DNA of 22,021 nt, taken from a virus. A program made the position numbers and the translations under genes. Each line of letters starts with the position of its first letter. Position 1 is the stretch's first letter. The notes under the pieces were generated by a model. It was not told the DNA's origin, ran no database searches, and saw nothing but the letters and a program-made list of their open reading frames with translations. Below are positions 4,563 through 15,487 of this stretch, one piece after another. Location of the stretch: IMG/VR virus record IMGVR_UViG_3300032240_000559, positions 1 through 22,021 of that record. One strand, given 5' to 3'.

Positions 4563-4635
4563 TGCCCTATAGCTCAGCTGGCAGAGCGAGCGACTGTTAA
4601 TCGCTAGGTCCCTGGTTCGAGCCCAGGTGGGGCAG
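4563..4635 (+). tRNA. tRNA-Asn (anticodon GTT)
   Basis: A full cloverleaf folds over 73 nt. The acceptor TGCCCTA (4563-4569) pairs with TGGGGCA (4628-4634), with one T-G wobble. The D stem is GCTC/GAGC. The anticodon stem AGCGA/TCGCT encloses CTGTTAA with anticodon GTT at 4596-4598. The T stem CCTGG/CCAGG encloses TTCGAGC. The discriminator is G and CCA is not encoded, so host or phage nucleotidyl addition is needed. It begins at the base after the upstream stop codon. Confidence 0.95.
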
Positions 4636-4639
4636 CAAT

Positions 4640-4715
4640 GCGGTTGTAGCTCAGTTGGTAGAGCGGCACCTTGCCAAGGTGCAGGTCGCGAGTTCGAGCC
4701 TCGTCAACCGCTCCA
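4640..4715 (+). tRNA. tRNA-Gly (anticodon GCC), CCA encoded
   Basis: The acceptor GCGGTTG (4640-4646) pairs perfectly with CAACCGC (4705-4711), followed by discriminator T and an encoded CCA (4713-4715). The D stem is GCTC/GAGC. The anticodon stem GCACC/GGTGC encloses TTGCCAA, with GCC at 4673-4675. The T stem GCGAG/CTCGT (one G-T wobble) encloses TTCGAGC. Only 4 nt separate it from tRNA-Asn and 1 nt from tRNA-Gln, so the three must be cut from one transcript. Confidence 0.95.
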
Positions 4716-4716
4716 A

Positions 4717-4788
4717 TCTCCCTTCGTCTAATTGGCAAGACTGCGGATTCTGGTTCCGCCTATCGAGGTTCGAGTCCTTGGGGGAGAG
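4717..4788 (+). tRNA. tRNA-Gln (anticodon CTG)
   Basis: The acceptor TCTCCCT (4717-4723) pairs with GGGGAGA (4781-4787), with one wobble. The D stem is GTCT/AGAC. The anticodon stem GCGGA/TCCGC encloses TTCTGGT with anticodon CTG at 4750-4752, reading CAG. The T arm CGAGG/CCTTG (one wobble) encloses TTCGAGT. The discriminator is G and CCA is not encoded. The promoter of the next gene lies just past its 3' end. Confidence 0.95.
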
Positions 4789-4797
4789 CTTTTAGTC

Positions 4798-14389: not shown

Positions 14390-14409
14390 ACGCTACAACT
14401 AAATAGCGC

Positions 14410-14440
14410 AAAGCCCCCTTTATAGGGGGCTTTGGCATTT
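14410..14440 (+). terminator. Perfect 10-bp hairpin terminator
   Basis: AAAGCCCCCT (14410-14419) and AGGGGGCTTT (14424-14433) pair perfectly around a TTAT loop. The following sequence is TTTGGCATTT, so the T tract is short and interrupted, but the GC-rich stem with its A/T flank should terminate transcription of the basic protein gene. It separates that unit from the hsp20 promoter. Confidence 0.75.
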
Positions 14441-14468: not shown

Positions 14469-14474
14469 TATACT
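14469..14474 (+). promoter_or_regulatory. Probable -10 box (TATACT) of the hsp20 promoter
   Basis: TATACT (14469-14474) lies directly after the terminator, preceded by TTG. Transcription would start near 14481, at a 5-bp stem TGACC/GGTCA (14480-14500) with an inner CTC/GAG. No good -35 is visible, but A/T-rich sequence (14445-14460) is upstream. The gene then has an approximately 50-nt leader. Confidence 0.5.
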
Positions 14475-14507
14475 ATTGCTGACCGCTCAACCGAGGGTCA
14501 CTTAACT

Positions 14508-14528
14508 TATATCGTCTAAGGAGATATA
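14508..14528 (+). promoter_or_regulatory. SD-enclosing hairpin in the hsp20 leader (possible RNA thermometer)
   Basis: TATATC (14508-14513) pairs perfectly with GATATA (14523-14528) around the 9-nt loop GTCTAAGGA, so the SD AAGGAG lies in the loop with its last G in the stem, 2 nt from ATG 14531. The stem is A-U-rich and would melt at mild heat. For a heat-shock gene this could be a thermometer, but only part of the SD is paired, so the loop may instead present the SD. Confidence 0.4.
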
Positions 14529-14530
14529 TT

Positions 14531-15037
14531 ATGGCTTCAGGCTACCCAATGGGTTCCCCACATGGCAGAGACCAGTGGTTGGAACCAAAAAAAATCAATT
14601 CAATAGGTTCAGTTACTATTGCTGACCCATTTAAAGCATTGCACAATATGCTGGACCCATGGACATTTGGGTTTGAGCGTCATCTAGAGTTTTTTGAGAA
14701 CTTAGAAGACATTCGTATTAAGTCCAATTACCCCCCTTATAACATCAAGACTTTGCCCAATGATAAGGCAGAAATTGAGCTTGCTATTGCGGGATTCAAG
14801 AAGGATGATGTTAAGATTACCTACAAAGAAAACATCATTACCGTAGAGGGCAACCGCGGTGAAGATAGTGCAGAATACTCATACAAGGGTATTGCGGCAC
14901 GTAACTTTGTACAGAAGTTTGCAATTGCAGACGATGTACTAGTAGGAGATGCAAAGCTAGAAGACGGTTTCTTAACCATTTCACTAGAGCGCATCGTTCC
15001 AGAAGAAAAGAAAGAAAAGACAGTAAAAATTAAGTAG
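14531..15037 (+). CDS. hsp20: Hsp20/alpha-crystallin small heat-shock protein (IbpA type)
   Basis: The 168-residue protein is a complete small heat-shock protein. The N-terminal region (1-70) is flexible and aromatic-rich. The alpha-crystallin domain starts at NYPPYNIKTL and includes YNI..., IELAIAGFKKDDVKI, ITVEGNRG, YSYKGIAARNFVQKFAIADD and a final LTISLERIVPEE, matching the IbpA-like group closely. A charged KEKTVKIK tail ends with an I/V-x-I-like motif used for oligomerisation. It holds unfolding proteins and probably helps virion assembly or stress survival of the infected cell; phage Hsp20 genes are known, for example in cyanophages. AAGGAG precedes ATG 14531. Confidence 0.93.
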   Translation: MASGYPMGSPHGRDQWLEPKKINSIGSVTIADPFKALHNMLDPWTFGFERHLEFFENLEDIRIKSNYPPYNIKTLPNDKAEIELAIAGFKKDDVKITYKENIITVEGNRGEDSAEYSYKGIAARNFVQKFAIADDVLVGDAKLEDGFLTISLERIVPEEKKEKTVKIK

Positions 15038-15043
15038 GACAAT

Positions 15044-15110
15044 AACCTAGCTATAGGTTGATTCCACTGACGTTCACCAACGTCCAATCATATTGTTATC
15101 ATCATAACAA
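15044..15110 (+). other. Three tandem tetraloop hairpins, 25-nt spacing (possible structured RNA)
   Basis: Three perfect stems follow hsp20: AACCTA-GCTA-TAGGTT (15044-15059, 6 bp), GACGTT-CACC-AACGTC (15069-15084, 6 bp) and TTGTTAT-CATC-ATAACAA (15093-15110, 7 bp). All have 4-nt loops and their centres are at 15051.5, 15076.5 and 15101.5, exactly 25 nt apart. No coding frame fits. They may form a structured 3' UTR or small RNA ending at the terminator 15124-15156. Confidence 0.5.
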
Positions 15111-15123
15111 GGTTGGCAACAAT

Positions 15124-15156
15124 AACACCCACGGCTTTTAAAGTCGTGGGTGTTTT
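15124..15156 (+). terminator. Rho-independent terminator after hsp20
   Basis: AACACCCACGGCTT pairs with AAGTCGTGGGTGTT (one G-T wobble) around a TTA loop, followed by TT, giving a classic hairpin with T run 15153-15156. It ends the hsp20 transcript and precedes a new promoter region. Confidence 0.85.
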
Positions 15157-15186
15157 GCTATACATTTAGTTGATTTGTGATAGGCT

Positions 15187-15226: not shown

Positions 15227-15487
15227 ATGAGTGCCAAAATAGGCTCGATACTTGACGATTTTATTGCTGCTTCAAAACTTCCGTCGGTATGTAAAATGGA
15301 AAAGTGGTTAAACACGCTACCTAAAGAAGAAAAAGAAAAGTTTGAATCATTAAAAGATGAGAATAGCCGAGTAGATATTAAAAATTTATATGAAGCATTA
15401 ATTGCAGCGGGGCATAACATTCCAGCAAAGTTAACAGCTTTCCGTTCACACTTTAAGGGGTACTGCACATGCAGCAAGAGTCGATAG
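15227..15487 (+). CDS. Small helical protein, possible helix-turn-helix (86 aa)
   Basis: AAAAAGGAGA precedes ATG 15227. The 86-residue protein is helical: IGSILDDFIAASK, MEKWLNTLPKEEKEKFESLK, then DIKNLYEALIAAGHNIPAKLTA and FRSHFKGYCTC. The last part resembles a helix-turn-helix with a recognition helix ending in a Cys-rich CTC, a pattern I associate with small phage DNA-binding proteins, but the match is not conclusive. Its end overlaps the phosphoesterase start by 19 nt, so they are co-translated. It has its own leader and promoter after the terminator. Confidence 0.6.
   Translation: MSAKIGSILDDFIAASKLPSVCKMEKWLNTLPKEEKEKFESLKDENSRVDIKNLYEALIAAGHNIPAKLTAFRSHFKGYCTCSKSR

Follow-up and report, generated by a model that had tools for sequence, protein, structure and literature searches.

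Why three short, perfect tetraloop hairpins should stand in a row between the stop codon of a phage hsp20 gene and its transcription terminator is the question raised by this locus. The window, by which we mean the whole 22,021-base stretch analyzed, is a fragment, an IMG/VR virus record, for which no DNA-level relatives were found in the phage collection; its proteins, among them a DnaB-like helicase, a UvsX/RecA-like protein, and a DNA polymerase, mark it as phage DNA. The host is likely actinobacterial, because the phosphoesterase encoded downstream of the array is closest to those of Clavibacter and Microbacterium phages (46%) and has one distant relative, at a Leifsonia aquatica locus (46%), in a genome contig scan. 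The window also contains a cluster of three tRNA genes at 4563–4789, for Asn (GTT), Gly (GCC), and Gln (CTG). Judging from its flanks (Table 1), hsp20 appears to be a single-gene unit with terminators on both sides, followed by a gene with a promoter-like site of its own, and the array lies in the hsp20 3' UTR, between stop codon and terminator. The three perfect stems, centered at 15051.5, 15076.5, and 15101.5, are exactly as the first-pass annotation had described them, and the terminator that it placed at about 15139 is likewise there, with a G+C-rich stem followed by a T-run, as in intrinsic terminators; the stem is kept with altered sequence in L021, L107, and other relatives (L numbers denote viral contigs). 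The array is flanked by an 8-base direct repeat, ACAATAAC, the two copies being 80 bases apart.

Table 1 Features of the hsp20 unit and its surroundings in the window
Feature	Coordinates	Strand	Details
Terminator-like hairpin of the gene upstream of hsp20	14409–14434	+	11 bp; bounds the hsp20 unit
Putative −10 of the hsp20 promoter	14469–14474	+	TATACT; conserved in the 5' regions of relatives
Two-hairpin element of the 5' UTR	14480–14528 (5' UTR to 14533)	+	Hairpin I, 14480–14500; ribosome-site hairpin, 14508–14528, loop GUCUAAGGA
hsp20, small heat-shock protein	14531–15037	+	168 aa; PF00011, 2e-16; phrog_432, 5e-37
HP1	15043–15060	+	6 Watson–Crick pairs and one U–G (15043/15060), loop GCUA; AACCTA-GCTA-TAGGTT at 15044–15059
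Decamer-type tract	15063–15087	+	CCACTGACGTTCACCAACGTCC; conserved in relatives
HP2	15069–15084	+	6 bp, loop CACC; GACGTT-CACC-AACGTC
HP3	15093–15110	+	7 bp, loop CAUC; TTGTTAT-CATC-ATAACAA
Repeat ACAATAAC	15119–15126	+	Identical to 15039–15046, at the base of HP1; may be left over from a second copy of HP1
Intrinsic terminator	15124–15157	+	Stem 15124–15154, center 15139; 15-nt arms 93% complementary; T-run GTGTTTTGC
Putative −10 of the next gene	15181–15186	+	TAGGCT; TAGGCT/TACGCT conserved in relatives
Gene following hsp20	15227–15487	+	86 aa, function not assigned; allele travels with the 3'-UTR type

The clustering of the hairpins is real and exceeds chance. The whole window has 8 tetraloop hairpins with perfect stems of 6 bp or more, against 6.3 expected, and three of them fall within 67 nt. 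A triplet with centers within 60 nt arose in 0/300 whole-window dinucleotide shuffles (Poisson expectation, about 0.001), and at least three hairpins in the 80-nt UTR arose in 0/20,000 local shuffles. That the cluster is a mere accident of this window, as might be argued from the fact that its spacing varies among relatives and that this is one window among many read, is very improbable in view of these shuffles and of the recurrence of the hairpins in relatives. With the terminator included, the region folds with a z score of −8, mostly due to the terminator; without it, the z score of the window's 3' UTR lies between about −2.6 and −2.8 for the + strand and between −0.9 and −1.5 for the − strand. 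The terminator-less UTR likewise beats its shuffles in the window, L012, L019, L009, L010, L206, and L190 (z −2.5 to −5.1), each time folding more strongly on the + than on the − strand (−2.58 vs −0.87 in the window, −5.08 vs −1.45 in L206, and −2.47 vs +0.64 in L190); L122 and L123 have the region, yet fold at the level of shuffles (−0.1 to −1.6). Since this strand difference is partly due to G–U pairs, it favors RNA over DNA structure, and a DNA cruciform or operator dyad is therefore disfavored, with HP1 left as a candidate for it.

Several other classes were discarded. The only + strand reading frame over the array is a 27-aa frame starting with TTG, and spacing and indels differ among relatives, contrary to a small ORF. 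Stems of 6–9 bp with 3–4-nt loops do not fit (by eye) a tRNA-like remnant, and ARAGORN predicts tRNAs only in the cluster mentioned above. Searched against Rfam, the array (15044–15110) gave no match at the gathering threshold and only weak, chance-like matches below it; over the window, tRNAs alone reached gathering. A REP/BIME or other repeated palindromic element is contradicted by the distribution of the decamer module, which in 20 related records occurs only after hsp20, the sole exception being an off-site match that contains a mismatch, and the same layout, for which a search elsewhere in the phage had been suggested, did not turn up as a second hairpin cluster in the window.

Relatives of hsp20 (65–83% identity, and more distant) were collected by protein and DNA-pattern scans of viral contigs (IMG/VR), and their 3' UTRs vary in the number and order of hairpins. 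Type I (the window, L012, L019, L023, L105) has HP1, the decamer tract with HP2, HP3, and the terminator, in this order, whereas type II (L009, L010, L024, L206, L122, L123, L190) has the decamer tract, an HP3-like and then an HP1-like sequence, and the terminator, HP2 being present in the decamer tract of L009, L010, L024, and L206. One hairpin is found in L107, one HP3-like hairpin in L021, and the decamer tract only in L022; in L003, L004, L008, L015, and L020 the terminator stands without any array hairpins. The hairpin orders of the two types (HP1–HP2 vs HP2–HP1), together with the ACAATAAC repeat, would fit an ancestral HP1–HP2–HP3–HP1 array that later lost one end or the other, which we offer as a conjecture. 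The exact 25-nt spacing from which selection had been argued is true of the window, where the hairpin centers lie 14.5, 39.5, and 64.5 nt from the stop codon, but is not conserved: the centers lie at 11.5 and 40.5 in L012, with an imperfect HP3 near 61.5 (spacing of about 29/21 instead of 25/25), and at 19.5 and 67 in L009, whose two hairpins are thus 47.5 nt apart. Regular spacing accordingly fails as a sign of selection, and its evenness, peculiar to the window among these relatives, appears to be a coincidence.

What persists is the pair of hairpin types rather than their exact sequences. HP2 with a CACY tetraloop is found in the window (CACC) and in L012, L009, L206, and L024 (CACU), and with one mismatch in L022, the two-sided changes being confined to the loop-closing pair (U–A, C–G, U–G). 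HP1-type hairpins with differing 5' arms occur in the window, L012, L019, L009, L024, and L190; among 10 sequences, the 3' arm and the adjoining CGACTCC are nearly invariant, while the 5' arm drifts from A–U to G–U pairs and mismatches. In the window HP1 has been rebuilt in another register, and in L190 the same HP1 3' strand takes part in a different 9-bp hairpin. Homologous but imperfect forms of HP3 are seen in L012 and L021. That the stems are unrelated in sequence, as first described, holds for the three hairpins themselves but not for the surroundings of HP2, which sits in a tandem decamer, ACGTYCACTG, with a core that is itself palindromic and of which L012 has two exact copies. The compensatory changes that selection for structure had been expected to leave in relatives are largely missing: HP1 has 0 compensated pairs among the 10 sequences, HP2 has 1, not above shuffles (148/500) and with low power from few distinct sequences, and HP3 has 2 in three distinct sequences, again not above shuffles (296/500), and five relatives are without the array. 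Because distinct array sequences are few, such covariation tests have little power; the tendency to form hairpins nevertheless appears to persist among the relatives without formal covariation.

The history of the array is tied to the gene on its far side. In all members of the family the gene after hsp20 is a small one of about 86 aa, whose alleles diverge strongly and are exchanged independently of hsp20. Between L010 and L024, hsp20 is 66% and the next gene 100% identical, whereas between the window and L010 the values are 82% and 29%, so that the two genes have had different histories. The 3'-UTR type tracks the allele of the downstream gene, not hsp20, so that the UTR travels as part of an exchangeable cassette, which comprises the terminator, the promoter, and the small gene and has the array region as its left edge.

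The other end of the hsp20 message presents a different picture. A two-hairpin element in the 5' UTR, in which the ribosome-site hairpin encloses AAGGA in the invariant GUCUAAGGA loop, precedes very divergent phage hsp20 genes (L003–L024, L122–L127, L209–L240). Pairing holds in 94.8% of cells over 27 distinct sequences, and nine pairs show two-sided changes (49 cells), values reached by 0/500 shuffles; slid structures drop to 32–49% pairing, and covariation is also significant for the ribosome-site hairpin alone. In each of 14 phage records a covariance model built on the element detects a single copy, and it detects none in the Leifsonia genome; the 5' tag has no copy in genome contig scans, and the element has no Rfam match at gathering. 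Because RNA thermometers at the ribosome site are common in bacterial small heat-shock genes (PMC8155344), the obvious hypothesis is that the element is a candidate RNA thermometer, or else a translational operator bound by Hsp20. With its strong covariation, against the weak covariation of the array, the 5' element is the more interesting RNA of the two, and, being absent from Rfam, it opens the way to direct tests of how a phage chaperone is regulated. We also observed an H-type pseudoknot of small size, NNNC-CUGRGCA-(N)GNNN..-AAACUGCYC, behind phage hsp20 genes that are more distant (L209, L216, L219, L220, L231, L232); many other viral contigs carry it too, each with several copies between genes (L242–L321; for example L302:4359, 6004, 6525, and 7862, L314, and L288). 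Its stem 1 (at least 4 bp) forms in 72/98 distinct copies, with 31 different triplets, against 10.4 after permutation, and it too has no Rfam match at gathering.

As to the array itself, the best single explanation, though one that we hold only tentatively, is that it forms a structured 3' UTR, under loose selection, on a monocistronic message of phage hsp20; non-random folding of the + strand and the recurrence of HP1 and HP2 types speak for it, and the weak covariation speaks against it. RNA polymerase would start upstream of the 5' UTR element, read through hsp20 and the array, and halt at the intrinsic terminator; a separate promoter would serve the next gene. The small hairpins and the terminator would then form a compact RNA tail, the likeliest job of which would be to keep 3'-to-5' exonucleases off the message and to insulate hsp20 from its neighbor. 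For such a task any short stable hairpin would do, which would account for the drift in sequence, spacing, order, and number; selection, if it acts here, would act on stability. A small RNA or a protein-binding array, both proposed at first, may be kept as candidate readings. A purely structural role does not explain, however, why type II keeps part of the sequence, TGTTATAGTACGACTCCCCC, unchanged but lets the opposite arm drift. Alternatively, the hairpins could be by-products of replication, produced by template switching at imperfect inverted repeats and by cassette exchange in a neutral intergenic stretch. Template switching is a documented mechanism that creates perfect stems in one step (PMC8794818), so that perfect short-loop stems need no function, and in the window and L012 the stems have been perfected by clustered changes in one arm: in HP3, TTGCAAT became TTGTTAT with the ATAACAA arm unchanged, and HP1 was re-made in a new register. 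The stems lack significant covariation, and the array has been lost in several lineages, as this origin would allow. We nevertheless consider it a less probable explanation than the structured 3' UTR, perhaps to be granted a quarter of our belief, since two types of hairpin are retained in 3' UTRs that have been rearranged, G–U pairs and the stronger + strand folding point to RNA, and 20 nt are invariant in type II.

The array might instead regulate the translation of hsp20, acting either in cis or after being processed into a small RNA. In type I, the stretch from HP1 up to and including the first decamer is complementary, co-linearly though imperfectly, to the ribosome site and start codon of hsp20, in that the HP1 3' strand, followed by (C/U)UCC and GACG, is antisense to CGUC..GGAG..UUAUGGCU. 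Pairing of the 3' UTR with its own start region is stronger than that of shuffled UTRs (4/500 in the window, 10/500 in L019, and 15/500 in L012, three related sequences and several comparisons), as is that of the 20–22-nt HP1 segment alone (15–77/2000 in five sequences), and there is precedent both in the 5'/3' UTR pairing of icaR (PMC3868564) and in 3'-derived small RNAs (PMC9438474). Whole type II UTRs, however, are not significant (236/500, 279/500, 343/500), other start regions pair equally well (own hsp20 ranks 9–14 of 125), and when both UTRs are free to fold, pairing gains nothing beyond shuffles, all of which leaves this control unlikely. The energies of full-length 3'/5' UTR duplexes, striking at first sight (0/200 in L012), were set aside after shrinking against decoys and with folding included. 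Still less likely is a single switch uniting both ends of the message, in which the 5' UTR element would expose or hide the ribosome site, the 3' HP1 strand would pair with it, and the message tail would feed back on Hsp20 synthesis, the array storing or releasing the antisense strand. In seven relatives (L009, L010, L024, L122, L123, L190, L206), the invariant TGTTATAGTACGACTCCCCC, mostly followed by TTCTTGTAC, stands before the terminator, a stretch that resembles either the promoter of a short, terminated transcript or an antisense seed. Type II UTRs have TTGCAA, 17–18 nt, and TGTTATAGT, then the invariant ACGACTCCCCC, and the HP1 region could accordingly be, in part of the family, a promoter driving a short terminator-ended RNA, its dyad being secondary. 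This suggestion, to which we give as little credit as to the switch, draws on the uninterrupted TGTTATAGTACGACTCCCCC common to the type II sequences L009, L122/L123, and L190, on TTGCAA being held at 17–18 nt despite a changed spacer, and on the match of TATAGT to the TANNNT −10 of neighboring putative promoters; it is at odds with the window, where TATAGG shows that the −10 is not kept, with L012, which has neither TG nor TTGCAA, and with consensus scans, in which there is no promoter excess.

If the structured 3' UTR is protective or tunes expression, the relatives provide a natural series of 3'-UTR variants on one phage gene, with 0, 1, 2, or 3 hairpins in two orders, which suits measurement of the effect of 3' hairpins on message life; if it is neutral, the locus is a clean case of perfect hairpins without function and warns against taking regular hairpins as selected. 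The locus is worth comparing with several known systems. The array would resemble template-switch hairpins (PMC8794818) in that perfect short-loop stems appear or re-form at homologous positions, although such switching is a mutational origin and not a function. With the promoter/stem-loop (PeSL) cassettes of T4-type phages (Arbiol 2010, Comeau 2014), as these are described in PMC4503421, it would share an intergenic stem-loop and promoter at the edge of an exchangeable module; the cassette linkage is observed here, and the promoters are putative ones read from the sequence, whereas the modules lie only after hsp20 and are not scattered over the genome as in that description. Like icaR 5'/3' pairing (PMC3868564) and 3'-derived small RNAs (PMC9438474), it includes a stretch of 3' UTR that is complementary to its own gene's ribosome site, but the pairing is imperfect, unspecific with respect to decoy start sites, and gives no signal in type II. 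The array has its position between stop codon and terminator, its orientation on the coding strand, and its stable hairpins in common with structured bacterial 3' UTRs that end in an intrinsic terminator; to these it adds, before the terminator, hairpin units that vary in number and order among relatives.
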